32,449 nucleotides of DNA from a bacterium (GTDB taxonomy: Bacteria; Patescibacteriota; Dojkabacteria; SC72), in assembly GCA_017958745.1 (NCBI GenBank), contig JAGDCC010000021.1, positions 1-32,449 on the forward strand. Direction: 5' to 3'. The notes beneath the pieces were generated by a model. That model saw nothing but the letters and a program-made list of their open reading frames with translations, was not told the origin of the DNA and made no database searches. The position numbers and the translations under genes are program-made. The first letter of the stretch is position 1, and every line of letters begins with the position of its first letter. Below are positions 4,323 through 28,913 of the stretch, in pieces.

Positions 4323-5261
4323 CTACTTTCTTCTAGGAGAAGAGTGGTCCTCATCTATGACACTAGATTCAAACTTTCTCTGTCTTAGCTTCACAACATT
4401 ACCGTTAATTGTTATGTAGCTCTTATTAACACCTGAGACAATAATTTCAAAGAAGAGACCAATAAGCAACATTGCAATTCCCCATATCAAGACAACAGAA
4501 TGATTTATTCCTGCATCAGGAAGTTTTTCTACACAAGTACAATCTTTACAAGCAAAACCTTCCTCACAGGAAGAATCATCACCATCACACATTTCACCAG
4601 TTTCTACAACGCCATTTCCACAAACAGGCCCTTTAGGTTCTGGAGTTGGAGTTGGAGTTGGTGCTACACAAGTACAGGTAGAACTACAAGTAGTAGTACC
4701 CATTGGACAAAGAGAAACATCTTCACCATCACATTCTTCACCATCATCTACTTTTCCATTACCACATTTTTCTTCAACAACAGGCTCACACTTACAGGTA
4801 TTATGGTTACAAGTATATTTCTCAGCTCCAGAATCAAAGAAATCCTCATCATAATCCCAAAGACATTGTACATCACCAGTAGCATATGTCTCACACTCTT
4901 CACCAGAGCCTAGGAAACCATCTCCACAATCATTTGGAATACAAGTACACTCAGATGTACATCTAACACACTCCTCTCTGTTATGTGAGGCATCACAATA
5001 TGGATCACATTGGACATTCCAACATTCTGGATGATCTGCTGCATTATCGACAGAACATTGTTCACCATTAGTAGTTGTCTTTGTAGTATCTATTTTAATT
5101 CTTCCTGATCCATCACCACAAACAGGATTACATTCCTCACAAAAATGAGACGAATCTCCATCAGCGATAAGGAAATTCTGTGTCTTTCTGAGATTTTCTG
5201 TAAAAACAACAACTAATGCTAGTGTTAGTAAAATACTTGCAAATATTTTAATCTTTTTCAT
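4323..5261 (-). CDS. Cys-rich DUF4215-like surface protein with possible LPxAG sorting signal
   Basis: This is a 312-aa secreted or anchored protein. It has a basic N-terminus and a hydrophobic signal segment at residues 4-20. Several Cys-rich repeats of the type CGxGxxxxGExC(DG) follow (112-124, 166-179, 214-227, with a degenerate one near 48), as in the DUF4215/Myxococcus cysteine-rich repeat group. A PTPTPTPEPK linker lies at 201-210. LPDAG (247-251) precedes a helix at about 255-277, then a basic tail of roughly 35 residues. The order LPxxG, helix, positive tail resembles a sortase sorting signal with Ala instead of Thr, although the tail is longer than usual. A sortase gene lies at 18325. 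It could equally be a simple C-terminally anchored protein. Repeats suggest adhesion or structure, with no enzymatic motif. Confidence 0.8.
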   Translation of the reverse strand: MKKIKIFASILLTLALVVVFTENLRKTQNFLIADGDSSHFCEECNPVCGDGSGRIKIDTTKTTTNGEQCSVDNAADHPECWNVQCDPYCDASHNREECVRCTSECTCIPNDCGDGFLGSGEECETYATGDVQCLWDYDEDFFDSGAEKYTCNHNTCKCEPVVEEKCGNGKVDDGEECDGEDVSLCPMGTTTCSSTCTCVAPTPTPTPEPKGPVCGNGVVETGEMCDGDDSSCEEGFACKDCTCVEKLPDAGINHSVVLIWGIAMLLIGLFFEIIVSGVNKSYITINGNVVKLRQRKFESSVIDEDHSSPRRK

Positions 5262-9855: not shown

Positions 9856-12504
9856 TTAATTAACTCTTTTCTTAAAATCGTTTAATAACTGAAGAGCATC
9901 CATAGGAGTCATATTGTTAATATCCAACTCCTTTATCTCTTTTTCTATTGCGGATTCTTTCATGCCAAACAAAGAGAATTGTTCTGTATTTTTTTCCTTA
10001 CTTTTCTCTTCCTGTTTATCTACACTAGATTTCTCTGTATCTTCTTCCTTTGCCTTGGATATATTAAACACGGAATTACCAACAGAATTGTTGTCAGAGA
10101 ACATATTTCTTTGCTCAAAGGATTCTAAAATCTCATTTGCTCTAGTAATAACCTTATCTGGAAGACCAGCCATTTTAGCTACATAGATACCATAACTTCT
10201 ATCTGTACCACCTTCTACAATTTTTCTAAGAAATACAACATTTCCTTTTTCTACATCCTCATCAACAAGGATATTGTAATTCTTTACACGACCGTTATAT
10301 TTCTCCGCTAGTTTTAATAGCTCATGGTAATGAGTTGCAAACAATGTTCTTGCTTTAAGATCCTCTACAATGTACTCTGCCAATGCCCATGCGATACTAA
10401 CTCCATCAAAAGTGCTTGTACCTCTACCAACTTCATCCAAGACAATAAGACTATTCTTTGTCGCATTGTTCATGATATTAGCTGCTTCATCCATTTCTAC
10501 CATAAACGTACTTCTACCTCGAGATAAATCATCAGAGGCACCAACTCTTGTAAAGATTCTATCAACAATAGATATTTCTGCACTTTCTGCTGGAACAAAA
10601 CAACCTATTTGTGCCATTAGGACAATAGTTGCAACCTGCCTTATATATGTAGATTTACCTGCCATATTAGGACCTGTTAGAACTGCCATATTGGATTCAT
10701 TAAAAGACAGAGTCGTGTCATTAGAGATAAAATCTCCTTCCAGCAAAGATTCTACTATTGGATGTCTACCTTTTGTTATATTAATAATTCCATTTTCTTG
10801 CTCCATATCATAAATAGTTGGCTGTACATAGTTGTTTTTATCTGCAACATAAGCAAAATTAGACAACACATCTATCTTAGCTATTATTTCTCCAACCAAC
10901 TGCATTTGTGGAATATATTCCACTAGAGAATTTCTGAAGTCTACAAACAAGTTGTACTCCATCTTCTGTAAATTATCTTGTGCATTAAGGATTAAGTCCT
11001 CCTGTTTCTTTAATTCTTCTGTAATATATCTCTCAGAATTGACTAGTGTTTGTTTTCTTATATACCTGTCAGGAACTTTATCCTGATGTGCTTTTGTTAC
11101 ATCTATGTAATATCCAAAAACATTGTTGAAACCAATCTTAAGAGTAGGGATACCAGTTTCTCTTTTCTCTTTTTCCTCTAAATCTTTAAGCCATTGATTT
11201 CCATTTTGGGAAATATTTCTCAGGTTATCTATTTCTTTATCGTATCCATCATGGATAATACCTCCTTCCGTGATAATCATTGGAGGATCTTCTGCAATTG
11301 TAGTGGCAATTTTATTGGATATGTCACGTATCAAGTCCATATCTATTTCCTTATATTCTATTCCTAGATTGTTCTTTAGTTTATCTAGTATCTCTAAAGA
11401 GTTATCCAAAGATACCCTTAATGCGACCAAATCTCTTGCAGTTGCTCTACATAGACCTATTTTTCCAACAATACGTTCTATATCGTTAATACTTTCTAGA
11501 TTTTCCCTAACACTATCCAATACTTCTTTATTATCCTTAAAACTTCTAACACCATTTAGTCTTTCTTCTATACTCTTTTTATTAATTAACGGATTAAGTA
11601 TCCAAGAATAGAGGAGTCTTGTTCCCATTCTTGTATTTGTATTGTTAAGGATATAAAAGAGAGAGTTTTCTACCGTAGAACTGTATGCACTTCTTACTAA
11701 TTCTAGATTTCTTACAGTTGCTCTATCTAATACCATAGTAGAGAATAGATTCTTTCTTTGTGGCTTTAAGATATGTTTTGGATCCATTAGCTGTGTATCC
11801 TCTATATACTTGAGTACCATTGCTATTGGTATTACTTCCTCAGAATCTGTGTCTATATCTAGAGATTCTGTGTTTTTTAGATTAAAGAAATCTTTTACAA
11901 CTGTATTTGCATAGGTTGTATTTTTTAATTCTTTGCCTACAAATTGTACTGGTTTACTAGAGAAATAATCACTTGTTGTTCCTTCTGTTAACAATACTTC
12001 TGTAGGATCGTAAGAGGAGAGTATATAGTTTATATTGTTTTCTGTGTCTTCTGTGACTATGTAAAAGAATGCTCCTGTGGATACATCGCAAAATGCAGAA
12101 TATATTTTTTTCTTAGATATATAAAATGCAGATAAGTAACTGTTTTTTATACTACTTGCTTCTTCTCCATCTAATGTACCAGGTGTAACAACTCTTACGA
12201 CACCTCTTTTAACTATACCTTTTGCAAGTTTTGGGTCTTCTAATTGGTCTACAACTACTACACAATATCCTGCTTCTATAAACTTAGGTAAATATTGGTC
12301 TATAGCTTTGTGTGGAAATCCAGCTAAACTCACATCTGTTTTTTTATTTCTTTTTGTGAGGGTAATATTTAAAACTTTGGAAGATATTTTTGCATCTTCT
12401 CCAAATGTTTCAAAGAAATCTCCCATTCTAAATAACAGAATTTTATCTGGGTATTGCTTCTTAAATGCTGTATATTGTTTCATCATGGGGGTGTTATCTT
12501 CCAT
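9856..12504 (-). CDS. mutS: DNA mismatch repair protein MutS
   Basis: This 882-aa mismatch sensor has full MutS architecture. The N-terminal mismatch-binding loop is GDFFETFGEDA with the F-x-E pair at residues 30 and 32. The connector, lever and clamp regions follow. The ATPase has Walker A GPNMAGKSTYIRQ, the GASDDLSRGRSTFMVEM loop, Walker B LIVLDEVGRGTSTFDG, and FATHYHEL. The C-terminus carries a Lys/Glu-rich stretch and the usual helix-turn-helix end (MTPMDALQLLNDFKKRVN). The gene is divergent from thyX. No mutL is in the window. A -10 box 7 bases before the ATG predicts a leaderless mRNA. Confidence 0.97.
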   Translation of the reverse strand: MEDNTPMMKQYTAFKKQYPDKILLFRMGDFFETFGEDAKISSKVLNITLTKRNKKTDVSLAGFPHKAIDQYLPKFIEAGYCVVVVDQLEDPKLAKGIVKRGVVRVVTPGTLDGEEASSIKNSYLSAFYISKKKIYSAFCDVSTGAFFYIVTEDTENNINYILSSYDPTEVLLTEGTTSDYFSSKPVQFVGKELKNTTYANTVVKDFFNLKNTESLDIDTDSEEVIPIAMVLKYIEDTQLMDPKHILKPQRKNLFSTMVLDRATVRNLELVRSAYSSTVENSLFYILNNTNTRMGTRLLYSWILNPLINKKSIEERLNGVRSFKDNKEVLDSVRENLESINDIERIVGKIGLCRATARDLVALRVSLDNSLEILDKLKNNLGIEYKEIDMDLIRDISNKIATTIAEDPPMIITEGGIIHDGYDKEIDNLRNISQNGNQWLKDLEEKEKRETGIPTLKIGFNNVFGYYIDVTKAHQDKVPDRYIRKQTLVNSERYITEELKKQEDLILNAQDNLQKMEYNLFVDFRNSLVEYIPQMQLVGEIIAKIDVLSNFAYVADKNNYVQPTIYDMEQENGIINITKGRHPIVESLLEGDFISNDTTLSFNESNMAVLTGPNMAGKSTYIRQVATIVLMAQIGCFVPAESAEISIVDRIFTRVGASDDLSRGRSTFMVEMDEAANIMNNATKNSLIVLDEVGRGTSTFDGVSIAWALAEYIVEDLKARTLFATHYHELLKLAEKYNGRVKNYNILVDEDVEKGNVVFLRKIVEGGTDRSYGIYVAKMAGLPDKVITRANEILESFEQRNMFSDNNSVGNSVFNISKAKEEDTEKSSVDKQEEKSKEKNTEQFSLFGMKESAIEKEIKELDINNMTPMDALQLLNDFKKRVN

Positions 12505-12511
12505 AGGTAGG

Positions 12512-12517
12512 AGTATA
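12512..12517 (-). promoter_or_regulatory. Extended -10 box for mutS
   Basis: On the minus strand TATACT is preceded by TGTGA, close to the TGTGG that precedes other -10 boxes here. It ends 7 bases before the mutS ATG, so transcription should begin at or next to the start codon. Confidence 0.5.
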
Positions 12518-12600
12518 TCACAAGAGCTATTTTTTTATTAATAAATGTGTAGTTTTCATTATCGAAGCTGTAAAAGCTTAAGAATGAACAATAATTGTGG

Positions 12601-12606
12601 TATAAT
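12601..12606 (+). promoter_or_regulatory. Extended -10 promoter of thyX
   Basis: A perfect TATAAT is preceded by TTGTGG, giving an extended -10 (TGn). A weak -35 (TTAAGA, 12578-12583) lies 17 bases upstream. The expected start near 12613 leaves a leader of about 60 bases, unlike the leaderless neighbours. Confidence 0.6.
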
Positions 12607-12620
12607 ACGGTTCGTTTTAT

Positions 12621-12673: not shown

Positions 12674-13351
12674 ATGGGTACGATAACAATCCAAGAAGAA
12701 ACAACAATGTATCCAATATCTTTGATTGGGAAAGAGGCTGGTGTTTGCTGGGGTGCAAACACGAAGGATGAATCCAAAAACTACCGAAGAGGTATTGATT
12801 GCATCCATGCCGAGCATGGTAGAACATGGGAATTTCCTCAGGTTTACCTTACCGTCGAAGGATACTCAGCAAGAGTTATTCGTGAATTGTACACACACAT
12901 TGGAGGAGGGCCAACACGACTTCAAAGTTCCACAAGATACGTGGACTACAAGTCATTTGAGTTTGTTATTCCACCAAGTATCAAGAAAGATACAAGGTAT
13001 TTAACAGTCTACAAGGATACAATGGCGAACATTTCCGCAAGTCTGAGACAATTGGAAGAGCTTGGTGCTCCAAGAGAAGATATTGCTATGCTCTTACCTC
13101 TTGGGATGAGTACTAGAATTGTCCTGCGCACTAACATGCGCAATCTTGTAGACATGTCTCATCAAAGGTTATGCAATAGAGCATACTGGGAGTTCAGAAC
13201 TCTTATGAATGACATTGCAAAATCATTGTATTACTATTCTCCAGAGTGGGAATACGTTGTCGACAAACTGTTTGTCCCTAAATGTGATATCACAGGTTAT
13301 TGCTGTGAAAAGAAATCTTGTGGGCGAAAGCCAAAGAAGTTAGAAGATTAG
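12674..13351 (+). CDS. thyX: FAD-dependent thymidylate synthase ThyX
   Basis: This 225-aa flavin-dependent enzyme makes dTMP from dUMP. The family's RHR-x7-S signature region appears in divergent form as RELYTHIGGGPTRLQSSTRY (about residues 70-89), in which the terminal S-x-RY is kept. This variant resembles ThyX proteins of clostridial type. The C-terminal half shows LLPLGMSTRIVLRTNMRNL then HQRLCNRAYWEFRTLMNDI, matching the substrate-binding helix. The tail has several Cys (CDITGYCCEKKSCG), a possible metal site. The start is fixed by AAAGGAG at 12661-12667, 6 bases before the ATG. Codon use is unlike the neighbours: a sampled 60-base block (13081-13140) is 27/60 GC, against 14/60 in pilC. 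This suggests acquisition or a separate expression class. Confidence 0.88.
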   Translation: MGTITIQEETTMYPISLIGKEAGVCWGANTKDESKNYRRGIDCIHAEHGRTWEFPQVYLTVEGYSARVIRELYTHIGGGPTRLQSSTRYVDYKSFEFVIPPSIKKDTRYLTVYKDTMANISASLRQLEELGAPREDIAMLLPLGMSTRIVLRTNMRNLVDMSHQRLCNRAYWEFRTLMNDIAKSLYYYSPEWEYVVDKLFVPKCDITGYCCEKKSCGRKPKKLED

Positions 13352-13459: not shown

Positions 13460-16084
13460 TTATTTACCAAGAATGATGTTTCTTTCCTCGCCACTTGCAA
13501 CTTCTCTTGCTTCTTTAATATGCTTTGGAGATACACATACACCATATACACCAGCTCTTACGCAGTATTTAAGTAATGGTTTGCTATCTTCTACAACAAC
13601 AATTATTCTTTCTGCTTTATTTCTTATTACACTAATAACATTATCTAATACTCTAAATACACTATTTCTTGCAAGATCGTAGCGAGCAGATTTATCGTTA
13701 AACTCAAAGCCCTGCATCTGTCTTGCAATTCTTGGCATATTAATAATTAATCCATCTATCTTTGTAGAAACAATATCTCCTGCAAGAAGGACTTCTCCTG
13801 GATTATCTAATATTGCATACACCTTAAAGGATTCCATTCTTCTTAATTTTTCTCCAGATAATTGCCTCTTAAATGCTCTCATCATGTCTTCGTTCATAGG
13901 AGCATGGATAGCAATAGAAACATTTCTTCTCTTATATACATTTCTTATTCTCTTAACAATCTTCAATACCAATCTTAACATCCTTATATTGTTTAGATAG
14001 TGGACAATACCATAGACATCATCAGAGAGCTTAGGATTCTCCAGCTGCTTACCACCGACTAAACTTCTAAATTCCTTAACTGTACTAGAACCAATAGATA
14101 TAACAACATCTTCTCCTTTAGCTAAATCTACATATTCCAATATCTTGTTGGATATCTTTCTTGCATACTCTAAACTCCTACCACTAGCTGCATACTTGAG
14201 AATATGCTTACCATCTTCCAACATAATCTTATCCAAATCTACATAAACAATACCACTTGCATTACCAACATACTCAAAGAGATCCTTAGGCTTATCGTTC
14301 GCCAAAGAGAATATCTGTGTAGCGGTTGGAAGTAGGTATTTATCCTTTGGTGGAACAGAGGAGGTTTTCTCTTTCTTAATAACAGTCTTCTTAACTTTCT
14401 CTGTAAGATCTTCTACATTTGGACTTTGTATTGCAGATATGTTCTGTTTAATCTCTTCTGTACTGTATGCTTTCACAACAGGATGTACACCATCTTCTGT
14501 CTTTTGTACTGGTTGTACTGTTGTTTGCTCTTGTTCTATATTTTCTAATTTCTCTCTATATACAACACCAGAGTTACCATCCATTCTTATGTAATCTCCT
14601 GTATTTATTAATGTGGATGCACTTTGTGCTCCAACAATAGCAGGAATTGCAAATTCTCTACAGAGTAGGGCAGTATCGCTAGTGATACCTCCTGCATCCA
14701 TTATGATACCTCCAGATGCGAGTATCATTGCTTCCATTTCTGTAGAATATTCTTTAATAATCAAGATGGTTTTTCTGTTTATCTTCTCCTTATCTATTGG
14801 TTTATCTACAACTCTAGCTATACCAGATGCAGTTCCAAAGCTTGCACCAATACCAGTAAGTATATAATCTTCCTTTTGTGTAGAGCTTTCCTTCAATTGT
14901 GTATCTTCGTTCTTCTTTGCTGTGTAGATAAGTTTCTCTAATCTCTTGTTTGTTTCATCGTTATTATGTTCTACTAATTTCTGTGCTTCTTTCATCGCAG
15001 TGCTTATCATTTGTGTTGCAGACTTACGATTCTCTATAAACTTAAGAATTACTTCTCTTAGATTCTTTTCTGTAATATCTGCATTTGCATATATAATCTG
15101 TTCTGCAACATTCTTCTCGTTTAATGGTTTGTTCTGCAAAATCCAGAATCTACCACCAGACATTACCCATTCTATATTTTGTACATCTCTAGACTTATCT
15201 TCTATAACGAGAGATATCTTTGCTATTTCTTCTAGATCTCTGTCTGATAGTTTTTGTCTATGACTATAGTTTGGAGAAATAGTAATCTTTTCTATATTTG
15301 GATTCTGTTTGTTAGATTGTTTAACACTTCTTACCTTCATCCACTCTTGTGGAGCGATATGTTTTTCTATTACAGAAAGATTCTTTTTATCCAAGAGGTA
15401 AGAATCTGGTGTTATTTCTCCTTGTGCAATTACATCTCCTAATCCGTATACTGCTTCTATGCTTAATTTTGTCTTATCCAAAGTAATAGGATCTACTGTG
15501 AAAGATACGCCAGATATCTCGGACTGTACCATTCTTTGTACAACTACTGCTAATCTTACACTAGATAGAGATACACCCATCTTGGATGCATAAGCTACTA
15601 CATCGTCAGAGAACATAGATGCATATATTCTTTTAATGGAGGCAATTAATTCATCGTACTTTCTTACATTAAGTTCTGTGGAGAATATTCCATTAAAGGA
15701 TACATCTTCTTTTTCTGGAAAGACTACAGAAGATCTTACAGATACCCATGCATCCGTAAAGCCAGATAATCTTGCATATGCAGAGGCTATTTCTTCTTCT
15801 ACTTCTTGCGGTAAGCTACACTTGGAAAACAATTCTTCTATTTCTCTTTCTTCTGGATTTCTGCCTCCTGCAAGTAACTTCTCTTGGCTTCCTTCTAATG
15901 CGTTAAAACAAAACTCAGAGAATACATTTCCAGATATTACAAAAAATTCTGGAACAGGTACATCCATACCTTTTAATCTAAAAAGGCTTAATCCTTTTCT
16001 TCCAACTGTTCCTTCTCTTAATTCTCTTGCGGAATAATCTTCAAAGAAAAGTACAGAGTTTTTAGAATTTAGATTATAAGGCAT
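13460..16084 (-). CDS. PEP-synthase-like protein lacking catalytic residues (candidate pseudoenzyme)
   Basis: This 874-aa protein has the domain order of phosphoenolpyruvate synthase/PPDK. Residues 15-330 form the ATP-grasp domain and look intact: VGRKGLSLFRL, AWVSVRSSV, SEISGVSFTVDP, GLGDVIAQGEITPDSYLLDK and IEWVMSGGRFWILQNKP. The phosphohistidine domain (about 408-512) has GGITSDTALLC, where the family has GGxTSHAA, so the phosphate-carrying His is Asp470. Residues 580-874 align by pattern to the PEP/pyruvate TIM barrel (SGIVYVDLDKIM for GVGLLRxEFL, EFRSLVGGKQLE for NEYxNLVGGExxE). Its catalytic Arg positions, the SIGSNDL segment (here IINMPRI) and the CGQxPS cysteine loop (here VEDSKP, about 831-836) are gone. 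A Lys/Glu-rich linker spans 512-580. Ordinary PEP synthesis is therefore unlikely. perM lies upstream on the same strand, 38 bases away. Confidence 0.85.
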   Translation of the reverse strand: MPYNLNSKNSVLFFEDYSARELREGTVGRKGLSLFRLKGMDVPVPEFFVISGNVFSEFCFNALEGSQEKLLAGGRNPEEREIEELFSKCSLPQEVEEEIASAYARLSGFTDAWVSVRSSVVFPEKEDVSFNGIFSTELNVRKYDELIASIKRIYASMFSDDVVAYASKMGVSLSSVRLAVVVQRMVQSEISGVSFTVDPITLDKTKLSIEAVYGLGDVIAQGEITPDSYLLDKKNLSVIEKHIAPQEWMKVRSVKQSNKQNPNIEKITISPNYSHRQKLSDRDLEEIAKISLVIEDKSRDVQNIEWVMSGGRFWILQNKPLNEKNVAEQIIYANADITEKNLREVILKFIENRKSATQMISTAMKEAQKLVEHNNDETNKRLEKLIYTAKKNEDTQLKESSTQKEDYILTGIGASFGTASGIARVVDKPIDKEKINRKTILIIKEYSTEMEAMILASGGIIMDAGGITSDTALLCREFAIPAIVGAQSASTLINTGDYIRMDGNSGVVYREKLENIEQEQTTVQPVQKTEDGVHPVVKAYSTEEIKQNISAIQSPNVEDLTEKVKKTVIKKEKTSSVPPKDKYLLPTATQIFSLANDKPKDLFEYVGNASGIVYVDLDKIMLEDGKHILKYAASGRSLEYARKISNKILEYVDLAKGEDVVISIGSSTVKEFRSLVGGKQLENPKLSDDVYGIVHYLNNIRMLRLVLKIVKRIRNVYKRRNVSIAIHAPMNEDMMRAFKRQLSGEKLRRMESFKVYAILDNPGEVLLAGDIVSTKIDGLIINMPRIARQMQGFEFNDKSARYDLARNSVFRVLDNVISVIRNKAERIIVVVEDSKPLLKYCVRAGVYGVCVSPKHIKEAREVASGEERNIILGK

Positions 16085-16122: not shown

Positions 16123-17205
16123 TTAAATAGTACCTTTAGCTTTCAACTTTTGCAAGTCTATATAGAATTCGTAGGCAACTTCTAGTAATACCATGACAGG
16201 TATTGTAACAAGTGCTCCAACTGCTCCAAAGAGAAGGAACATTACCATTACACCAACAAGGATAAACAATGGTTTTAGTCCTACTGCAGATCCCATTACT
16301 TTTGGAGATATGTAGTTGTTTTCTAATGGCTGGTATAGGATAAAGACTGCGAGTGCTATAAATGCTTTAGCTGGTCCAACAGTTACTAATCCGACAAGAG
16401 ATATTGCAATTCCTGCGAATGTAGCACCGAAATTTGGAACTAACCCCATTAATCCAACGAATACAGCTAATGGTATAGCAAATGGTATGTTTAGAATGGA
16501 TAGGGCAATAGCAGAATATATTGTTGCTAATCCACTTACAAATCCTTGTCCTAATACCCAGTGTCCCAATCTGCTTTCCGTTTTTCTTATTAAATTTTTA
16601 ACTATATTCTTTTTCTCTTTTGTACTAATTCTCAATAATAAAACATCCAGCATTTGGTCATGTTCAGAGACTAGGTATATAGAAGATATAAATGCTGTAA
16701 GAAGAAGACTCAAAGAACCAAAGAGTCCAGCAAGTGCACTTGTTATATTTTTTACATTATCTGCACTTGGTATAGATTTTAAGAATTCCAATATAGATTT
16801 CTGTACAGTAGAAAGGTTAAGACTTCTTCCTGCAATAGATATTCCTTCGATTTTATTTATTACATCTTCTACCCAAACAGGCAGAGTAGACATAAATGCT
16901 CCACTTTGGTTTATAAATGGAATGATAACGGCAGAGGAAATAACGATCATGACAATAAAAATGGATATGTATGTTATAAATATGGACCACTTTCTAGAAA
17001 TGCCTCTATTTACTAATCTTCTTACAATAGGTAATGCCGTTGACATAAATATAATCGTCAACATTGCATATATAAATACAGATAATAGTTGAGAACCGAA
17101 ATATTTAGCAACAATAAGTAGCACAATAAATAGCATTGTACTAAAAGACAGGCTTACAACAACATTCTGTGGTTCTTTTTCTTTATCTAGATTATTTTTA
17201 TCCAT
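16123..17205 (-). CDS. AI-2E transporter/PerM-family permease
   Basis: This 360-aa integral membrane protein is of the AI-2E/PerM (UPF0118) family. About eight hydrophobic segments are visible. The cytoplasmic N-terminus (MDKNNLDKEKEPQNV) is followed by paired helices. A soluble mid-section (about 120-200) comes next. The conserved C-terminal block includes GHWVLGQGFVSGLATIYSA, GLMGLVPNFGATFAGI and QPLENNYISPKVMGSAVGL, which is the family hallmark. Members include the TqsA exporter and Na+/H+ antiporters, and the substrate cannot be inferred. A -10 box (TAGAAT, 17220-17215 on the minus strand) 9 bases before the ATG predicts a very short leader. Confidence 0.9.
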   Translation of the reverse strand: MDKNNLDKEKEPQNVVVSLSFSTMLFIVLLIVAKYFGSQLLSVFIYAMLTIIFMSTALPIVRRLVNRGISRKWSIFITYISIFIVMIVISSAVIIPFINQSGAFMSTLPVWVEDVINKIEGISIAGRSLNLSTVQKSILEFLKSIPSADNVKNITSALAGLFGSLSLLLTAFISSIYLVSEHDQMLDVLLLRISTKEKKNIVKNLIRKTESRLGHWVLGQGFVSGLATIYSAIALSILNIPFAIPLAVFVGLMGLVPNFGATFAGIAISLVGLVTVGPAKAFIALAVFILYQPLENNYISPKVMGSAVGLKPLFILVGVMVMFLLFGAVGALVTIPVMVLLEVAYEFYIDLQKLKAKGTI

Positions 17206-17242: not shown

Positions 17243-18169
17243 CTAAATCTCCCTCTTATTTCTTATCTTAACTGTTATACTACTAACTATTAGACATGCG
17301 AATGCTACTATTCCAAATGTTAGCATTAAGTTATTGGAGGTAACTTCCATCCATGCGTAATCTAGGTTACCAGCTGCTACAGGTAAAACAGTATCTGCAA
17401 TACCATCTCCATTTATATCTGCATATGGGCTATAAATAATAACAATTTCCTTACTGCTAGCTGCCTTATTACCAGCTCTATCTATAACTTCCAATGTATA
17501 TGTATTCTCTCCTTCTGTAAGATTTATATCACTAAATAAGAAATTACCATTACTATCTGTAATTGTAGAGATAAATCCATCCGTACCCTTTAGAGTAACT
17601 GTACTTCCAGGTTCTGCATTTCCTGTAATATTTGTCTTACTTCCAGATGTTTCTACTGGAAAATTAATATTACTTGCTTCTTCTGGAGCCTGTTTATCTA
17701 CAGTAACTGTTCTTCCAACAGATTCTGGAGTTATATATTTCTTCTCAAGTCCTTTTCCTTTGATACCTGCACTACTTACAACAAAACTACCAGATTCAAT
17801 ATTGTGGTAATAATCATAAGAGAAAGTACCATCTTCTTTTACATCTGCAGTTCCAACCTTTTTACCATCTATATATATTTCTACTTTGTCATAACCATTA
17901 GCAACACCACTAATAGTCACCTTATCATTGTTTGTATATTCTGGAGTAGATGCTATAGATGGAGCTTCTAAAGAAGAATCTAATACATAACTTTGTCTAT
18001 TTCTAATAAAAGAAATTAATCCATAAACTACAAAGCAAATTCCCAATACAATAAATATAGTACCAACAATTCTAGAAACACGATCTTGTTCCTCATTACT
18101 CTTCTTAATTTCTAATTTGGAAACCATACTATCTTCTTCTTGAGCAGTAGAAACTTTTTTCTTAGCCAT
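17243..18169 (-). CDS. Membrane-anchored Ig-like surface protein with C-terminal LPVAAG-helix-basic tail
   Basis: This 308-aa protein has a charged N-terminal 30 residues and a transmembrane helix at about 33-55. Two beta-rich Ig-like modules follow (about 68-158 and 160-246), typical of bacterial surface Ig repeats, with phrases such as TISGVANGYDKVEIYIDGKK and ITGNAEPGSTVTLKG. DINGDGIAD (251-259) is a Ca2+-binding EF-hand/dockerin-like loop. LPVAAG (262-267) comes before a second helix (about 281-299) and a basic end (KIRNKREI). The C-terminus looks like a variant sorting signal, but an N-terminal uncleaved helix would also anchor it. The gene is divergent from the sortase gene 155 bases away, which supports a functional link. 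No enzymatic residues were seen. Confidence 0.75.
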   Translation of the reverse strand: MAKKKVSTAQEEDSMVSKLEIKKSNEEQDRVSRIVGTIFIVLGICFVVYGLISFIRNRQSYVLDSSLEAPSIASTPEYTNNDKVTISGVANGYDKVEIYIDGKKVGTADVKEDGTFSYDYYHNIESGSFVVSSAGIKGKGLEKKYITPESVGRTVTVDKQAPEEASNINFPVETSGSKTNITGNAEPGSTVTLKGTDGFISTITDSNGNFLFSDINLTEGENTYTLEVIDRAGNKAASSKEIVIIYSPYADINGDGIADTVLPVAAGNLDYAWMEVTSNNLMLTFGIVAFACLIVSSITVKIRNKREI

Positions 18170-18324: not shown

Positions 18325-19011
18325 ATGAAAAAACTTTTAAAATCAATATTAATACTAGTTTTGTTCACGATAACATTTGTCCCAATCGTGTTATTTATTG
18401 TGTATCCGTTATACATAGATGTTCATATAGAGCTATCATCTCTAGATTTATACAAAATATCTAACAGAACATCTATAAAACTACTCACAGCAATAGCACC
18501 AAAAGAAGATATCTACAAAGAAGAAGTCCTAGGAGCATCTACTATAGAAGAAAGCATCAACCCAACAACACTAGAGATAGATAAAAGCAAAATAGAAGAC
18601 ATAAATACAGCACTCAAAATAGAATCACTAGATATATTGGGAAATATTTATCAAGGAGAAAGCTCAACAACAATGGATACTGGTTTTTGGCACTATCCAA
18701 CCTCTGCATATCCTGGAAAAAAAGGAAACGTAGTAATAGTAGGGCATCGCTTTGGAAAAATACCCCCAGCAACAGATACTTTTTATAATTTAGACAAAAT
18801 ACAGATAGGAGATAAAATCACTATCACAAATGATTATTCTACATACAACTATATTGTTGTAAACATAAAAGAAGCAGAAGCAAACGATATGTCTGTTGTA
18901 GATCAGACAAGAGATTACAGACTCACCTTGATAACTTGCACACCATTGTGGACATCAGAAAAAAGGCTAGTTGTAACGGCAATGCTAGACAAGTTATACA
19001 AAAAAGTGTAG
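18325..19011 (+). CDS. Sortase family transpeptidase
   Basis: This 228-aa sortase has an N-terminal transmembrane anchor (about residues 6-28), a linker, and the sortase beta-barrel from about residue 95. The catalytic triad is all present: His141 in VVIVGHRF, Cys205 in LTLITCTP and Arg214 in SEKRLVVTA. GFWHYPTSAYPGKKGN before the His resembles class D/E sortases. The enzyme would cleave a C-terminal sorting signal and attach proteins to the envelope or to each other. Candidate substrates in the window are the adjacent divergent Ig-like protein (LPVAAG) and the Cys-rich protein at 4323 (LPDAG). Trigger factor follows 30 bases downstream and may be partly read through. Class and specificity are uncertain. 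Confidence 0.92.
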   Translation: MKKLLKSILILVLFTITFVPIVLFIVYPLYIDVHIELSSLDLYKISNRTSIKLLTAIAPKEDIYKEEVLGASTIEESINPTTLEIDKSKIEDINTALKIESLDILGNIYQGESSTTMDTGFWHYPTSAYPGKKGNVVIVGHRFGKIPPATDTFYNLDKIQIGDKITITNDYSTYNYIVVNIKEAEANDMSVVDQTRDYRLTLITCTPLWTSEKRLVVTAMLDKLYKKV

Positions 19012-22209: not shown

Positions 22210-22992
22210 TTACCAGATAAAGCCTTCTGTTTGGACTACTGTCTGCCTTTTTATAATCTTTTGTACAGGAGCACCTTTACCTAGATACCACTTAAGAGCC
22301 TCTGCTGTTAGATTAAAGGATATTAGATAATTTCCATCGCTTTCCTCTATGTAACTAATACCAAATTCATTGAAACCGACAGTAGAAGAATTAAGGACAA
22401 TGTAGTTATAAGAGTGATTCTTTTTCTCATCAAAGCAATCCGCATGACTACCACCTTCAAAACCACTAACAGATGTTTGCAATATATAACCATGTTTCGC
22501 ACCACTATCTATATCAGCATAAATGCCATAGTCATTTGTACCTTCCACAGAACCTTTATCATAAAAGAAACCTATACATATCCATTCTTCGTAGCCATAC
22601 GGTCTAAAATGTATTTCGTTCCCAACTGTCTTAGCACTATCACCTGCATCCAAAGTACCCTCAGGTTTTACAATGTTTGCAGAGCTATAAACACTAGGTA
22701 TCTTTTCTTCATCACCTTCTACAACACCAGTTTTTGGGTCATAAACTCTTGCACCCAAAGAATCGTAAATATAGACATCATCTGGATTAGAGTTTCTTAC
22801 AGTTCTTCTTACTAATTCCAAAACATACTCAGATTCATTTCTCAGCTTCATCTTAGCAGAAGAGACCAGAGATACCTTTACCAAGGTAGTCAAAGAAGAA
22901 GAGACCACAACCATGATTATAGACATAATTATCATGGTAATAAGCATTTCTATTAAACTGAATCCTTCATATGTCTTCTTCATAATATTCAT
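22210..22992 (-). CDS. Type IV minor pilin (PilW/PilJ-like)
   Basis: This 260-aa prepilin has a short leader MNIMKKTYEG and then FSLIEMLITMIIMSIIMVVV. The cleavage glycine and Glu+5 are in the canonical positions. The ATG at 22992 overlaps the stop of the preceding pilin gene by one base, and a second ATG three codons later (MKKTYEG) could be the real start. The globular domain begins with a helical stretch (KMKLRNESEYVLELVRRTVRN) common in GspJ/PilW types and carries two Cys (ICIGFF and ADCF). It is cotranscribed with the neighbouring pilins. A gap of 64 bases then separates it from the gene at 22145. Confidence 0.88.
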   Translation of the reverse strand: MNIMKKTYEGFSLIEMLITMIIMSIIMVVVSSSLTTLVKVSLVSSAKMKLRNESEYVLELVRRTVRNSNPDDVYIYDSLGARVYDPKTGVVEGDEEKIPSVYSSANIVKPEGTLDAGDSAKTVGNEIHFRPYGYEEWICIGFFYDKGSVEGTNDYGIYADIDSGAKHGYILQTSVSGFEGGSHADCFDEKKNHSYNYIVLNSSTVGFNEFGISYIEESDGNYLISFNLTAEALKWYLGKGAPVQKIIKRQTVVQTEGFIW

Positions 22993-23621
22993 TATAATTT
23001 TATAGTAGCATAATACACATAATCACTCACATAATTACCTGATGCAAGTCCGTCTTTATTTCCTATTTGTCCAATATGTACCTTAGCTAACACATACCTA
23101 TCTACTTCACTAGAAAAATCTAGTTCAACAATTCTAAAGAATACTGGATTTTTAGCTAAATCAACATCCTGGTAATCATTTCCAGTCTTATGAGTAATGT
23201 AACATGCATGTTCACTTCCTCTTTCATATTCTCCTCCAATACAGCTAGTTCTTACTTCCTTGTAGCTTTTAGATGATTTTTCACACAAAAAATAATCTCC
23301 ATCTCTGACAAAGCTATAATTTCCAGAAGAATCTTTTTGGATAAAGAAATACATACAACCAGATTTACCAGTTGGAAATATTTTTTCATTATCGTAATAA
23401 TCTCTGTCTCTTGTTGCAATATCCTGCAATGCAATACCTCCTTCATATCCGTACTGTGTCATGTTATCTATCTGTTCATTTTTTACCATTTTTGTAAATG
23501 TATTAGATGCAATCTGCATCAAAACAACAGATAAAATTCCTATAACAACAATAGCTATTAGAACATCTATAAAGCCCATTGCACGGTATCTTTTATTATT
23601 TTTTACTAAATAATTAATCAT
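22992..23621 (-). CDS. Atypical type IV minor pilin (PilV-like) with shortened signal
   Basis: The frame can extend upstream to 23669, but the first pilin-like start is the ATG at 23621 (MINYLVKNNKRYRAMG), which overlaps the preceding stop by 8 bases. That gives 209 aa. The processing site reads G-FIDVLIAIVVIGILSVVL. Compared with the usual G-FTLIEVLIA it lacks two residues and has Asp in place of Glu, so the acidic residue is at +3. The globular part has four or five Cys in the order CMYFFIQKDSSGNYSF, FLC, VRTSC and HACYI, followed by FFRIVELDF. This order recurs in the protein at 20670-22145. PilV/GspI-like minor pilins prime pilus assembly, and the altered signal is odd but the gene sits in the middle of the pilin run. 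Confidence 0.82.
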   Translation of the reverse strand: MINYLVKNNKRYRAMGFIDVLIAIVVIGILSVVLMQIASNTFTKMVKNEQIDNMTQYGYEGGIALQDIATRDRDYYDNEKIFPTGKSGCMYFFIQKDSSGNYSFVRDGDYFLCEKSSKSYKEVRTSCIGGEYERGSEHACYITHKTGNDYQDVDLAKNPVFFRIVELDFSSEVDRYVLAKVHIGQIGNKDGLASGNYVSDYVYYATIKL

Positions 23622-24480
23622 GATCACATTTTTCACTAATTTCACCTGTACAACATCCATCACTAGCAACCTCAGATGTTACTTTTCCACCAAGATTAGT
23701 AACTTTAATACATCTAGTAGAGGATTCTCCTCGTGTATCAAGCGGCTTAATCTTTATTACTAAATCCTGCACACAACCCTCATTTAGCGCACCATTAGTA
23801 GATCCCCAATCATAGTTAATAATATTTCCTACATCATCATAGAAAAAAGTTCTACCACTAACAGATTCAAAAAGGATATAACGAGCAGCAGTAATATCTG
23901 GTGCTTCACCAGTTCCACAATTGTTTGTTTTTACAATTTCAATAGTACTAAGTGGAGCCTCCGTACCCATTCCGTACCCGGAAAGAAGAACAAGCCTAGA
24001 CTCTGAAACACTAGCACAAGACGATAAGGAATAATCATTTGCCGAATCAGCTGGCAAACAACCACTACCTTCTAATCTATTTCTATTAGCACAAGAGCTT
24101 AGTTTCTCCGCATTTCGCAAATTATAATTAGGGATTTTTGCTTTAGTATCATTACTTCCATAATCTTTATGTCTAGAACACCATTTAAAGGCAGTAAATG
24201 TACCAACACTCTCGCTCCCAACCATTTTAGTCATATCTATTCCAAGACCATATAACCAGTTTTCATCAGATTTTCTTTCAAGTAACATAGCTGCCCTTTG
24301 TATATCAGAGATTTGCTGTTCCAATGTTGCTGTATATTCGTTTAATCGGACAGTTCTTTGTAAACCAGTCAAAGAAGAAAAACCTAATCCGCCAAGTACC
24401 ATTACAATAGCCATCACGACAAGTATTTCTACAAGTGTAAAACCATGATAAAAATTGTGATTTATTTCTTTAGGTTCCAA
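23614..24480 (-). CDS. Type IV pilin-like protein (GspH/FimT type)
   Basis: The pilin signal is HNFYHG-FTLVEILVVMAIVMVLGG, with Glu+5 present. There is no ATG upstream in frame. I chose the TTG at 24480, which gives a 13-residue leader (MEPKEINHNFYHG) and 288 aa. Another TTG at 24537 would add 19 hydrophobic, aromatic residues that look unlike a prepilin leader. The helix is followed by LNEYTATLEQQISDIQRAAML, as in GspH/FimT pseudopilins. The exported domain has about ten Cys, including a CC pair near the end (DGCCTGEISEKCDHD), so several disulfides are likely. It lies between pilD and the PilV-like gene. Confidence 0.8.
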   Translation of the reverse strand: MEPKEINHNFYHGFTLVEILVVMAIVMVLGGLGFSSLTGLQRTVRLNEYTATLEQQISDIQRAAMLLERKSDENWLYGLGIDMTKMVGSESVGTFTAFKWCSRHKDYGSNDTKAKIPNYNLRNAEKLSSCANRNRLEGSGCLPADSANDYSLSSCASVSESRLVLLSGYGMGTEAPLSTIEIVKTNNCGTGEAPDITAARYILFESVSGRTFFYDDVGNIINYDWGSTNGALNEGCVQDLVIKIKPLDTRGESSTRCIKVTNLGGKVTSEVASDGCCTGEISEKCDHD

Positions 24481-24552
24481 ATTTCTAACAACAAATATAT
24501 ATACATAAAATGTAACATAGAAGAAATGGAAATTCAACGAATAATAAATAAG

Positions 24553-25290
24553 CTATATAGCAAGATGGAATGTCTCACGTAAAAAGTCAAAAATAACACT
24601 TCCAAACACTACAGCTATTACATAAGAAAAAGTAAAAAAAGGAAGCATTGGTATTTTAATTTTAAGAAACTTTTTCTTTTTAATAATGGAATAAAATACA
24701 CAGAAAACAATTGCTGTAAATATACCTACCCAAAACAGAACAAGAAATTCGTTATATTTTGACAATAAACCTAAACCAACAAGTAACAATATATCTCCCA
24801 GACCAAAGGATTTTTCCAAGAAATAAACTAATATTCCTATCATAATCAACACAACAGCAGCAGCTATTAAGCTAGGTAGATTAAGATTAAATCCACAGAA
24901 GTAAATAAGAGCAAATATTAAGAAAAGATGAACTATCATTTGAGGAATAGCTCTGTATATATAATCATAGTAGGAAAGAGAAAACAAAAATATCAATGCT
25001 ATCCATGCATGTAGTGGGGCAGAGTACAATCCAAATAGTAAAAAAGATATACCCAAAAATAATTCAGATAATGGATAATAGATACTTATTCTTTCTTTAC
25101 ACTTTCTACATCTACCTTTGAGAATTAGATAACCAATAATGGGAATAAGTTCCCACCATGAAAGAACGTGTTTACATTTCTCACAGTGGGATCTATTTAA
25201 TATCAAATCCTTCCAATTGTAATTATTGTCTAGTCTATATAATGTCGCATTTACAAAGCTAGCAATAACACAACCTATTACAAATAGCAT
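24553..25290 (-). CDS. pilD: Prepilin peptidase/N-methyltransferase PilD
   Basis: This aspartyl membrane protease removes prepilin leaders and methylates the new N-terminus. I chose the ATG at 25290, because MLFVIGCVIASFVNATLYRL is exactly the family's first helix and lies 13 bases after the upstream stop. Longer starts (25332, 25365) would overlap the pilin gene. The protein is then 245 aa. A zinc-type cytoplasmic loop has two CxxC pairs (HCEKCKH and RCRKCKE) as in bifunctional enzymes. Catalytic Asp residues are in SYYDYIYRAIPQ and GLGDILLLVGLG. Seven or eight helices are visible. It immediately follows the pilin it would process. Confidence 0.92.
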   Translation of the reverse strand: MLFVIGCVIASFVNATLYRLDNNYNWKDLILNRSHCEKCKHVLSWWELIPIIGYLILKGRCRKCKERISIYYPLSELFLGISFLLFGLYSAPLHAWIALIFLFSLSYYDYIYRAIPQMIVHLFLIFALIYFCGFNLNLPSLIAAAVVLIMIGILVYFLEKSFGLGDILLLVGLGLLSKYNEFLVLFWVGIFTAIVFCVFYSIIKKKKFLKIKIPMLPFFTFSYVIAVVFGSVIFDFLRETFHLAI

Positions 25291-25303
25291 AAACAAAACT
25301 AAG

Positions 25304-25885
25304 CTATTGGTTTGATGCCCACTCAGAGCCATTCCAGTCAGACTTGAGAGCTGTATGTCCATCAACTAGAAGACTTGTAGGCTCTTGTGATTGGTCAGAA
25401 TCTAAATTAGAATCTATGAATTTACCTCCTGCCAATGCGGTATCTCTAAATCCATTACCTGTGCAATAGAATCCTCTACCAGCTTCATCATCAACACCAC
25501 CTTTAGAAACACAAACAATAGCAGATTGTCTATTTTCAGCAACCATATAATAGAAAGATGTAGAGCTACCACCATCAAAAGCACCATCTAAATAATTAGT
25601 AAGACACAATTCAATTAGCTTTGAAGGAGCAATTGAAAGCGTTTTATTACCAGAAGCAACGGAAGCACCTGTACAATCAGCTTCTTTTTCTGGATATATT
25701 CTCTTATCGGTATAGAATCCAACTAATGCATCCCATAATTCATCTGCTGCATCTTGGTGTGCAATATCATTTGCTCTTTGGATTGCATATCTTCCAGAAG
25801 CAATTCCTACAGCCATAAGAATCATAAGAATACCCATGACTACCAACATTTCTACGAGTGTGAAGCCTTTATAATTGTTTTTCAT
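25304..25885 (-). CDS. Type IV pilin, candidate major subunit
   Basis: This 193-aa prepilin has a 7-residue leader MKNNYKG and then FTLVEMLVVMGILMILMAVG, with Glu+5 present. The helix continues into AIQRANDIAHQDAADELWDALVGFY, as in the major pilins of Gram-positive and CPR pili. The domain then has NKRIYP-like placement (DKRIYPEKEADC), a typical T4P/GspG feature, and three further Cys. It is the first pilin after pilC and is preceded by its own AT-rich gap with a hairpin, consistent with higher or separate expression. That it is the major subunit is inference from position, short leader and GspG-like start. Confidence 0.85.
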   Translation of the reverse strand: MKNNYKGFTLVEMLVVMGILMILMAVGIASGRYAIQRANDIAHQDAADELWDALVGFYTDKRIYPEKEADCTGASVASGNKTLSIAPSKLIELCLTNYLDGAFDGGSSTSFYYMVAENRQSAIVCVSKGGVDDEAGRGFYCTGNGFRDTALAGGKFIDSNLDSDQSQEPTSLLVDGHTALKSDWNGSEWASNQ

Positions 25886-25932
25886 TTTTAAATATAAATA
25901 TAAATTAATTAACTATTTTTTATTATATTATT

Positions 25933-25952
25933 ATCTCTATGTCAATAGAGAT
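25933..25952 (-). other. Stem-loop between pilC and the pilin gene
   Basis: ATCTCTAT and ATAGAGAT form a perfect 8-bp stem around a 4-base loop, starting 3 bases after the pilC stop and 48 bases before the pilin ATG. No T-run follows on the minus strand. A processing or stabilising element that lets pilin mRNA accumulate fits the position better than a full terminator. Confidence 0.45.
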
Positions 25953-25954
25953 TA

Positions 25955-27166
25955 CTACCCAATTGCAGAAGAAAGCTGGAACATTGGCATATAAACACCT
26001 AAAGCGATAAAACCTACTGCCAATCCCATGATTACAAGAAATATTGGTTCCAACAAAGAAGAGATATTATCCGTAGCATTATTAACATCTTCTTGGTAAT
26101 ACTCTGCAACTTTGTTAAGTACAGATCCTATTTCTCCTGTTTCTTCTCCAACAGAAATCATACTACTAACAAGAAGAGGGAAATTAGGATTTCTACCAAT
26201 AGGAATAGCTAGAGATCCACCTTTTTCTACATCATTTTTTGCTGTAGCGACACCCTCTCTAAACACAGTATTACTCAATGCCATACCAGTTAAATCCAAA
26301 GCTTTAACAATAGCTAAGCCACTATTGAGAAGAAGAGCTAATATTCTAGTAAACTGTGCAATCTGTATCTTCTTAATCAATGGCCCAATAATAGGTGTTT
26401 TAATAATGATTTTATCGAAATTCTTCTTACCATTTTCTGTATCAAGATATGCTTTGATAATAACAACTAGCAGAGCAAGAACTAGAAGAACAGCCCACCA
26501 ATATCCTACAAAGAAATTACTCATACCAACAAGGACACGAGTAACCCATGGAAGCTCTGTATCAAAGTCAGCGTAGATATCGGACATAGCAGGTACCATT
26601 ACGATCATCATTATTGCTACAACAGCAATAATTAACACAACAATAATAATAGGGTAAATCATAGCGGATTGTATTTTCTTACGTAGACTCTCACTAGCTT
26701 CCAACTCTGTTGCCAATCTATCAAAGACTTGGTTAAGATTACCACTTTCCTCTCCAGCTTGTATTAGGTTCAAAGAAATTGTGTCAAAGACTTTATCCTG
26801 CTCACGAAATGCAACTGATAAAGGTTTACCAGACTCAACAGAAGCTAAAACATCTCTTACTACGCTCTTAAATTTAGGATTTTCAACCTGCTGTATCATA
26901 ATCTCTAAAGCTTTGGTTATGGATAATCCAGCACCAATCATTGTAGACATCTGTCTCATAAAGATAACCTTATCCTTAGATGGTATTCCACCGATATTTA
27001 TCTCATTTAACTTTTCCCAATCTATTGAGTTGGATGCCTTAACAGAAACAACAACAAGCCCTTTATCATGGAGGATATCTGCAACAGCCATTTCATCCTT
27101 GGCTTCTAAAGTGCCATTATATTCTTTTCCTGCAGCATCTCTTGCTATATATTTAAATTTTTTCAT
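25955..27166 (-). CDS. pilC: Type IV pilus inner-membrane platform protein PilC
   Basis: This 403-aa GspF/PilC-family polytopic protein couples the cytoplasmic ATPases to pilin insertion and removal. The N-terminal KKFKYIARDAAGKEYNGTLEA and VVSVKAS strand pattern is typical. Two GspF domains (about 65-190 and 270-395) contain FMRQMSTMIGAGLSITKALEI, IQAGEESGNLNQVFDRLA, and in the second half FTRILALLLNSGLAIVKALDL with SVGEETGEIGSVLNKVA. Transmembrane pairs are at about 165-195 and 215-240, with a C-terminal helix (LLEPIFLVIMGLAVGFIALG). The length is standard. It begins 5 bases after the pilT stop. Confidence 0.95.
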   Translation of the reverse strand: MKKFKYIARDAAGKEYNGTLEAKDEMAVADILHDKGLVVVSVKASNSIDWEKLNEINIGGIPSKDKVIFMRQMSTMIGAGLSITKALEIMIQQVENPKFKSVVRDVLASVESGKPLSVAFREQDKVFDTISLNLIQAGEESGNLNQVFDRLATELEASESLRKKIQSAMIYPIIIVVLIIAVVAIMMIVMVPAMSDIYADFDTELPWVTRVLVGMSNFFVGYWWAVLLVLALLVVIIKAYLDTENGKKNFDKIIIKTPIIGPLIKKIQIAQFTRILALLLNSGLAIVKALDLTGMALSNTVFREGVATAKNDVEKGGSLAIPIGRNPNFPLLVSSMISVGEETGEIGSVLNKVAEYYQEDVNNATDNISSLLEPIFLVIMGLAVGFIALGVYMPMFQLSSAIG

Positions 27167-27171
27167 AATAT

Positions 27172-28881
27172 TTAATTAATATTTAATAACCTAAGTAATT
27201 CTTCTGGATGTACAGCATATTGTTCTGCAACATCTACAGTTATTTCTCCTTCTCTGACTAAGTTTGCTAATGACTTTTCTATAAATGTCATACCAATATC
27301 TGCACTTGTACGTATAATGTTATCAATCTGATTAGTATTAGACTCTCTAATTAGATTTCCAATAGCAGGAGTATTAAACATAATTTCAGATACAGCACGT
27401 CTTCCACCTTTGTTTAGAGGTACAAGTCTTTGTGCAATAATAGCATTCAAACAGCTAGATAACTGAGATCTAATCTGCGGTTGTTGATTCTCTGGGAAGA
27501 CATCTATGACTCTATCTATTGTCTGAGATGCACTATTGGTGTGTAATGTTGCAAAAACAAGGTGACCTGTTTCTGCACAAGTAATTGCAGCAGCCATTGT
27601 TTCATAGTCTCTCATTTCTCCAACGAGGATAACATCTGGGTCCTGTCTTAAAACACTCTTTAGAGCAACAGTCCAGGAATAAGTATCATCGTTCAATTCT
27701 CTTTGATCTATCAATGCTTTTTTACCTTCATAAACATACTCAATAGGGTCCTCGATTGTAATCATGTGGCAACTTCTATTCCTATTAATATCTTCCAACA
27801 TAGCTGCCAATGTAGTGGTTTTTCCACTTCCCGTAGGTCCTGTTACTAACACAAGTCCTTGATTTTTCTTTGTTATTTCGTGATATATCTGTGGAAGCAT
27901 TAATTCCTCCATAGTAGATATTCTGTAAGGAATTAGTCTGAATGCAGCAGCAAGATTTCCTCTAGCATAATATGCATTGACCCTAAATCTACATGTTATA
28001 GCTCCATTGTACTGATAAGCATAATCTACCTCTCTATTAATCTCTAAATTCTCTTTCTTTTGGTCATCCAATGACTGATATATTAAATCCTGCACTTCCA
28101 CTGGATCTAGGATATCATCATCATAATCGACTAATTTGCTATCTATTCTAATTTTTGCTGGATATCCAACGGTAAAGTGTACATCAGATGCTTTATTTTC
28201 TATAGCATAGCCTAAAATATCATCTAACTTCTTTCCCTGAGATGGAAGATTAGTATTAACATTTACATCCGCTGGTAACTGACTTGTTAATTCAGATACA
28301 GGTGCCGTAGGCATAGTAGGGGAAGCATTATCTACAGGTGGAACTTCTACATGTGGAGCAGGATTATTCTCTGCTACTACAGACGGAAGTGGTGTCGCAA
28401 GACTATTCTCTACTGGATTTCTCTCCATTGCCTTAGGTTTAAGTGTACTTGTATCTGGCATAATCGTGTTCAATTCTGTTGGAGCAGTTGGAGATTGTGT
28501 ACTATCTGCACCAATACCAGTAATATCTTCCAAAGATATTGTTGGAACAGGTGTATCTATTGGTGTCTGAGATATCTCTGGAGCAGTTGGCTGATTTTCT
28601 ATCAAAGAAGATGCTAATTCATCTACCGTAGACGACTCAACAGGTGGAATCTCAAGTGGTGGAGCAGGAGTAACTTGTTCTACTATCGGTTGTTGTAAAT
28701 CCTGCTGTAAAACAGGTTCCTGTGGCTGTACTGATTCCTGCGATTGTACAGGTTCTTGTGGCTGTACAGGTGTCTGCGATTGTAGTACTACAAAATTGTT
28801 AATCTTATCTGTCATAGATTGCATAACATTCTGTATTCCACTAGCTATATTGTTACTATTTGTTTGAGCAGTTTCGTCCAT
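27172..28881 (-). CDS. pilT: Pilus retraction ATPase PilT with long Pro/Gln-rich N-terminal extension
   Basis: This 569-aa hexameric ATPase powers pilus retraction. The PilT core starts near residue 217 (KKLDDILGYAIENKASDVHFTVG). Walker A GPTGSGKT has Lys354. The Asp box is MITIEDPIEYVY and Walker B is DPDVILVGEMRDYETM. The His box is GHLVFATLHTNSA, and the PilT-specific AIxNLIRE motif appears as AIGNLIRESNTNQ. Typical PilT is about 350 aa. Here about 216 extra residues precede it, low-complexity and rich in Pro, Gln, Val and Ser, with QPQEPVQSQESVQPQEPV near 40-57. They are probably disordered and could bind a partner. A TGGTATATT promoter-like site lies just before the gene, around the pilB stop. 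Confidence 0.95.
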   Translation of the reverse strand: MDETAQTNSNNIASGIQNVMQSMTDKINNFVVLQSQTPVQPQEPVQSQESVQPQEPVLQQDLQQPIVEQVTPAPPLEIPPVESSTVDELASSLIENQPTAPEISQTPIDTPVPTISLEDITGIGADSTQSPTAPTELNTIMPDTSTLKPKAMERNPVENSLATPLPSVVAENNPAPHVEVPPVDNASPTMPTAPVSELTSQLPADVNVNTNLPSQGKKLDDILGYAIENKASDVHFTVGYPAKIRIDSKLVDYDDDILDPVEVQDLIYQSLDDQKKENLEINREVDYAYQYNGAITCRFRVNAYYARGNLAAAFRLIPYRISTMEELMLPQIYHEITKKNQGLVLVTGPTGSGKTTTLAAMLEDINRNRSCHMITIEDPIEYVYEGKKALIDQRELNDDTYSWTVALKSVLRQDPDVILVGEMRDYETMAAAITCAETGHLVFATLHTNSASQTIDRVIDVFPENQQPQIRSQLSSCLNAIIAQRLVPLNKGGRRAVSEIMFNTPAIGNLIRESNTNQIDNIIRTSADIGMTFIEKSLANLVREGEITVDVAEQYAVHPEELLRLLNIN

Positions 28882-28913
28882 ATTTTTATATTACAACTAA
28901 TATACCAAATTTT

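Follow-up and report, generated by a model that had tools for sequence, protein, structure and literature searches.

PEP-synthase matches in Dojkabacteria may not denote a PEP synthase, and the locus analysed here raises the question of what such a protein does once the residues needed for PEP synthesis are gone. The window, a stretch of 32,449 nucleotides (contig JAGDCC010000021.1) from a member of the Dojkabacteria order SC72, carries a gene whose product is shaped like PEP synthase (PpsA; pyruvate, water dikinase). A preliminary description held that the ATP-grasp motifs were kept, that the phosphohistidine motif and two barrel motifs had been replaced, and that the intact frame implied selection, and it read the protein as a pseudoenzyme or as a user of ATP for another purpose. 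The reading that we favour, and consider somewhat likelier to hold than to fail, is that the gene belongs to an order-wide, vertically inherited family of PpsA-derived pseudoenzymes that do not make PEP and would instead act as ATP-dependent conformational switches or regulators.

No description of a PpsA pseudoenzyme in Dojkabacteria was found in the literature searched. The family is of interest as a clear and ancient instance of a central-carbon enzyme turned to another use, with its ATP site intact, in genomes of ~0.7 Mb with few dispensable-looking genes. It also bears on metabolic reconstruction: a survey of the Candidate Phyla Radiation proposed that PEP synthetase might serve lineages that lack pyruvate kinase (PMC7304191), and counting the present family as PEP synthetase in such surveys would be wrong.

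Gene and Domain Architecture

The gene lies on the minus strand and encodes three domains and two linkers:

13460..16084, minus strand: PpsA-shaped pseudoenzyme gene, 874 codons, uninterrupted from ATG to stop
15110..16063, minus strand: ATP-grasp (PPDK_N) domain, residues ~8-325, with K30, R117, T136, E305 and Q317 kept
14870..15109, minus strand: first linker, residues ~326-405, predicted to contain a long helix (342-392) as well as disordered stretches; conservation is poor
14549..14869, minus strand: swivel (phosphohistidine-type) domain, residues ~406-512, devoid of His
14675..14677, minus strand: codon of Asp470, which by alignment takes the place of the carrier His421 of E. coli PpsA
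14330..14548, minus strand: second linker, residues ~513-585, largely disordered, under the weakest constraint
13463..14329, minus strand: degenerate PEP/pyruvate-binding barrel, residues ~586-874, with its catalytic residues missing and a fold predicted to be intact
13727..13747, minus strand: IINMPRI, replacing SIGSND(L/M) by alignment
13577..13594, minus strand: VEDSKP, replacing the catalytic-Cys loop CGQxPS by alignment

The order of domains is that of PpsA. Pfam recognizes PPDK_N (220.7 bits, residues 26-328) and the PEP-utilizers mobile domain (58.5 bits, residues 436-506); it found no PEP-utilizers_C (PF02896) in the 874-residue protein, and the barrel is recognized by fold comparison and by a match over the full length of the protein to the NCBIfam PEP-synthase equivalog NF005057 (296 bits). 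Scores against the equivalogs NF005057 and TIGR01418 fall far below the curated cut-offs (296 versus 598 and 279 versus 740 bits), and the top solved-structure match by sequence is a PEP synthase, 8a8e. An AlphaFold2 model has a mean pLDDT of 81 and a pTM of 0.45, values at which the individual domains are confident and their mutual arrangement, docking of the swivel included, is uncertain. Compared separately with solved folds, the modelled ATP-grasp domain matches 5hv6_B (TMt 0.87), the swivel matches the NMR carrier domain 2fm4 (TMt 0.68) and the barrel matches 8a8e_A (TMt 0.82).

The protein thus resembles PpsA (2ols, 8a8e) in domain order, in its predicted three-domain fold and in its ATP-grasp pocket, but differs in falling below the curated cut-offs and in lacking both the carrier His and the barrel active site. 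Overall architecture and the swivel concept are shared with PPDK as well, although the window protein scores closer to PpsA and the genome encodes its genuine PPDK elsewhere, in a gene of its own.

Retention of the ATP Pocket and Loss of the Transfer Residues

Active-site residues were read from an alignment of the window protein with E. coli PpsA (MG1655) and canonical PpsA of Patescibacteria. E. coli K27, R127, T146, E320 and Q334 correspond to K30, R117, T136, E305 and Q317, while the Arg of the VQ(A/S)RP motif (E. coli R336) is replaced by Lys319; positions 27, 127, 320, 334, 336 and 421 accordingly read K, R, E, Q, K and D in the window protein versus K, R, E, Q, R and H in E. coli. The claim that the ATP-grasp motifs are kept therefore stands for five residues and fails for the VQARP Arg. 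In the rifampin phosphotransferase RPH-Lm, the ATP phosphates are positioned by three residues, Lys22, Arg117 and Thr136, which together with Glu297 touch ATP phosphates or Mg (PMC4844700); their equivalents here are K30, R117, T136 and E305.

At the carrier position, the phosphohistidine motif GGxTSHAA is GGITSDTA, with D470 aligned to E. coli H421, as the preliminary description had it. That description also named a carrier His in another register as a finding that would overturn it; a scan of the swivel domain (residues 406-512) found no His in any register, which rules this out. The neighbouring Ser469 (14678-14680, minus strand) does not vary in the class-wide alignment, including in sequences that differ at the carrier position. 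Regulation of the motif by a PpsR/PDRP-type protein was rejected, PF03618 being absent from all 59 genomes searched, including the window's own, and an apparent in-frame loss of the swivel in one genome (G020) was dismissed as an assembly N run.

All tested residues of the barrel are lost. E. coli R578, R608, E680, N703, D704 and C751 are S, Y, D, P, R and a gap; SIGSNDM aligns with IINMPRI, and the C751 loop aligns with VVEDSKP, its Cys gone. The barrel changes first reported, in these same two motifs, are thereby borne out and extended.

Distribution, Phylogeny and Selection

The family profile matches 40 of the 42 genomes of the order, and the exceptions, G003 and G019, are assemblies in 100 or more contigs. 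The preliminary description proposed a search of related genomes for the same His-to-Asp change and barrel loss; the same combination is present in every readable homologue from the order. Among 37 readable members (36 in the active-site table plus L031) the carrier residue is Asp in 34, Asn in two, Glu in one and His in none, and members in the table keep K, R, E and Q (one with Q replaced by E) and lose H, R, N, D and C. The full active-site set is kept in 15 proteins comprising canonical Patescibacteria PpsA and E. coli PpsA (one truncated before K27), and the twelve residues are all present in 20 further PpsA drawn from throughout the phylum. On the established chemistry of these enzymes, the loss of every tested transfer and barrel residue across the order would exclude synthesis of PEP by the PpsA/PPDK route.

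A quick gene tree of the ATP-grasp and swivel domains, in which some forks are open and three branches are long, places the Asp-bearing proteins on one side (SH-aLRT 91) and broadly tracks taxonomy, with families f6 and f8 as outer branches. In other families of the class, which lie outside this clade, the swivel has Tyr, Arg, Lys or Ser, or, in a single genome (G386), His; families f10-f13, f15 and f16 have also lost most of the ATP residues. Asp and an intact ATP pocket therefore co-occur, with f7 (Tyr, ATP residues kept) as the exception. The G386 protein (L144, 9923-12616) is a mirror-image relative, retaining the swivel His (SSHAA) and lacking most ATP-grasp residues, and its gene stands in a row with genes for a transglutaminase, enolase and phosphoglycerate mutase.

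For nine pairs, dN/dS estimated by the Nei-Gojobori method was ~0.03-0.14 in the three folded domains (ATP-grasp, swivel, barrel) and rose in the second linker; synonymous sites are near saturation in several pairs, and the close pair L010/L011 (dS ~0.1) agrees. Strong purifying selection thus acts on each of the three domains, a direct demonstration of what had been argued from the intact frame. Given this constraint and the recurrence in all readable homologues of the order, the pattern is not one of chance or a local quirk.

One relative has dispensed with the barrel. In G055, a gene for a 447-residue protein (L149), located inside its contig and followed after 15 bp by MutS, ends after the swivel; the ATP residues and the Asp are kept, which places the core function in the ATP-grasp and swivel domains. 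Beyond the preliminary description, then, the comparison adds an ancient, order-wide and selected family, a conserved Asp and gene order, and a barrel that can be lost while the ATP-grasp domain and the Asp-bearing swivel are kept. With a conserved Asp and a barrel-less relative at hand, the role of a His-less ATP-grasp/swivel pair becomes directly testable.

Metabolic Background

The question of whether a second, normal enzyme exists, raised by the preliminary description, has a divided answer: the window's own genome (G000) encodes a canonical PPDK, and most relatives have none. The PPDK gene lies on another contig (C29, L095, ~9968-12607) and has GGMTSHAA and the barrel residues; no canonical PPDK was found in the other searched members of the genus. 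Contamination was rejected as the source of the PPDK contig, whose GC content is 0.336 against 0.342 and whose tetranucleotide correlation with the window (0.976) is close to that between the window's halves (0.979); its composition fits the same genome as the window.

Outside the family, PEP-utilizers_C scores above threshold in only four of the 42 genomes of the order (G000, G035, G037 and G038), and G001 has a 59-residue PEP-utilizers_C fragment besides. This short barrel fragment (L110, C4, ~100292-100486), which has a stop, is possibly the remnant of a PPDK like that kept in the window's genome. Searches found pyruvate kinase in 38 of the 42 genomes of the order; over the full set of 59 genomes, the counts were 52 for pyruvate kinase and 49 for enolase. 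Since pyruvate kinase is near-universal in the order and the window's genome has its own PPDK, interconversion of PEP and pyruvate does not depend on the pseudoenzyme.

Gene Neighbourhood

The genes flanking the pseudoenzyme gene in the window are as follows:

9856..12504, minus strand: MutS, the conserved neighbour on the far side
12674-13351, plus strand: ThyX, between MutS and the pseudoenzyme gene, which are adjacent in most relatives
16123..17205, minus strand: AI-2E family transporter, the next gene upstream, in the same orientation and 38 bp away; a conserved neighbour
17243..18169, minus strand: membrane protein with bacterial Ig-like domains, a conserved neighbour

Across the order the cluster consists of the Ig-like membrane protein, in some cases DUF2085, the AI-2E transporter, the pseudoenzyme gene and MutS; sortase, trigger factor and ClpP lie on the far side of the Ig-like membrane protein. 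The AI-2E gene and the pseudoenzyme gene are adjacent on the same strand, mostly 6-54 bp apart; in the g6 genomes (L102, L103) the AI-2E gene is absent from the locus.

In class families f7, f9, f15 and f16 the relative comes after a gene for a transglutaminase-like exported protein; relatives in f9 also occur with phosphoglycerate mutase and FemAB, and those in f16 with enolase and phosphoglycerate mutase. These arrangements suggest that the ancestor may have been a true PpsA in a lower-glycolysis operon. The f9 cluster (L085, L086, L146 and L148) runs transglutaminase, pseudo-PpsA, phosphoglycerate mutase and FemAB; pyruvate kinase and enolase gave no match in the f9 genomes searched (G045, G051 and G057).

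Proposed Function and Alternatives

The broad reading of the preliminary description, a pseudoenzyme or a protein using ATP for another purpose, is supported as far as sequence reaches by the order-wide loss of transfer and barrel residues, the kept ATP residues and the selection on the gene. In the mechanism that we favour, the ATP-grasp domain would still bind MgATP, and binding or hydrolysis of ATP would pull the swivel onto the ATP-grasp domain. Asp470 might serve as a permanently charged mimic of the carrier or as a contact to Mg-ATP, and the movement of domains would be read out by the barrel, by a partner or by both. The likeliest partner may be the adjacent AI-2E-family membrane protein, proposed here because the short-gap gene pair is kept across the order; such a partnership would rest on synteny, which is no proof of interaction, and the g6 genomes manage without the AI-2E gene at this locus.

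The retained ATP site would be almost as compatible with a kinase that has a different acceptor as with a switch. Such an active phosphotransferase would use ATP to phosphorylate or pyrophosphorylate a protein or small molecule directly; Asp470 would act as base or metal ligand, and the barrel would bind a new substrate. This is unlikely on balance but deserves serious weight. The conserved ATP-grasp residues and the strong selection on a barrel that has lost its PEP site are in its favour, and the fold has been reused in rifampin phosphotransferase and hydroxyphenylethanone kinase (PMC4844700, PMC12167813). However, rifampin phosphotransferase (Rph) relies on its swivel His and the window swivel has none, the barrel is dispensable in L149, and Lys replaces the Arg of VQARP.

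Phosphorylation of carboxylates is common among ATP-grasp enzymes, and Asp470 could itself be an acyl-phosphate carrier, phosphorylated by the ATP-grasp domain in place of the ancestral His and presented by the swivel to a partner as aspartyl phosphate. We regard this as improbable. The presence of Asp or Glu in 35 of the 37 members speaks for it, as does the association of Asp with a kept ATP pocket, class families without the Asp having mostly lost the ATP residues. Yet the Asn found in two genomes argues weakly against Asp470 as an obligatory phospho-acceptor, the side chain of Asp is shorter than that of His, and the barrel has no recognizable downstream acceptor site. We know of no PEP-utilising enzyme with such aspartyl-phosphate swivel chemistry.

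A DNA-binding repressor derived from a PpsA/Rph-type enzyme seems less probable again. The precedent is PspR of Haloferax mediterranei, which has lost enzyme activity and gained a regulatory role while keeping an ATP-binding domain (PMC10948481), but PspR is described with the conserved His kept, and Pfam found no DNA-binding domain in the window protein. A working PEP synthase with unconventional residues, which the absence of a canonical PpsA/PPDK barrel from most of the order might favour, is very improbable in view of the loss of all tested carrier and substrate residues, the barrel-less L149, the presence of pyruvate kinase in the order and the normal PPDK in the same genome. That the gene is an inactivated PpsA drifting toward loss is scarcely credible: its catalytic residues are gone and the branch of the window copy is somewhat longer than those of its sisters, but dN/dS of 0.03-0.14 in the folded domains, which in the main rules out a drifting pseudogene, retention across the whole order and ATP residues invariant save for the one Q-to-E change all stand against it.

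Comparison with Other Dikinase-Derived Proteins

The switch or regulator proposed here would be comparable to, and distinct from, two regulatory proteins that both keep their His. PspR, a PPS-like repressor, is described as having both a DNA-binding region and the conserved His (PMC10948481); the likeness lies in a PEP-synthase-like protein with a regulatory role in place of enzyme activity and with its ATP-binding domain kept, and the difference in the His and the DNA-binding region described for PspR. VadK (Rv1127c) of Mycobacterium tuberculosis (EMBO Rep 2026) has a putative autophosphorylated His422 and no pyruvate domain (PMC13400623). Like the window family it is dikinase-derived, regulatory and no longer PEP-making, and its two-domain form resembles the barrel-less L149; unlike that family, which has lost the His and usually keeps the barrel, it keeps His422 and lacks the pyruvate domain. 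Rph (5hv1, 5fbs) is similar in its ATP-grasp domain, that of the window protein being 26% identical to 5hv6 with the equivalents of K22, R117, T136 and E297 kept, but it has a C-terminal His domain and a rifampin-binding domain and needs its His.

Other Features of the Window

A Cys-rich exported protein is encoded at 4323-5261 (minus strand), with repeated CGNG/CGDG...GE.CD motifs, a C-terminal LPDAG, a transmembrane segment and a basic tail; it looks like a sortase substrate, and a sortase gene is present in the window at 18325-19011. A type IV pilus/pseudopilin cluster at 22210-30752 (minus strand), named from translations, comprises PilB-, PilT-, PilC- and PilD-like genes and several pilins.
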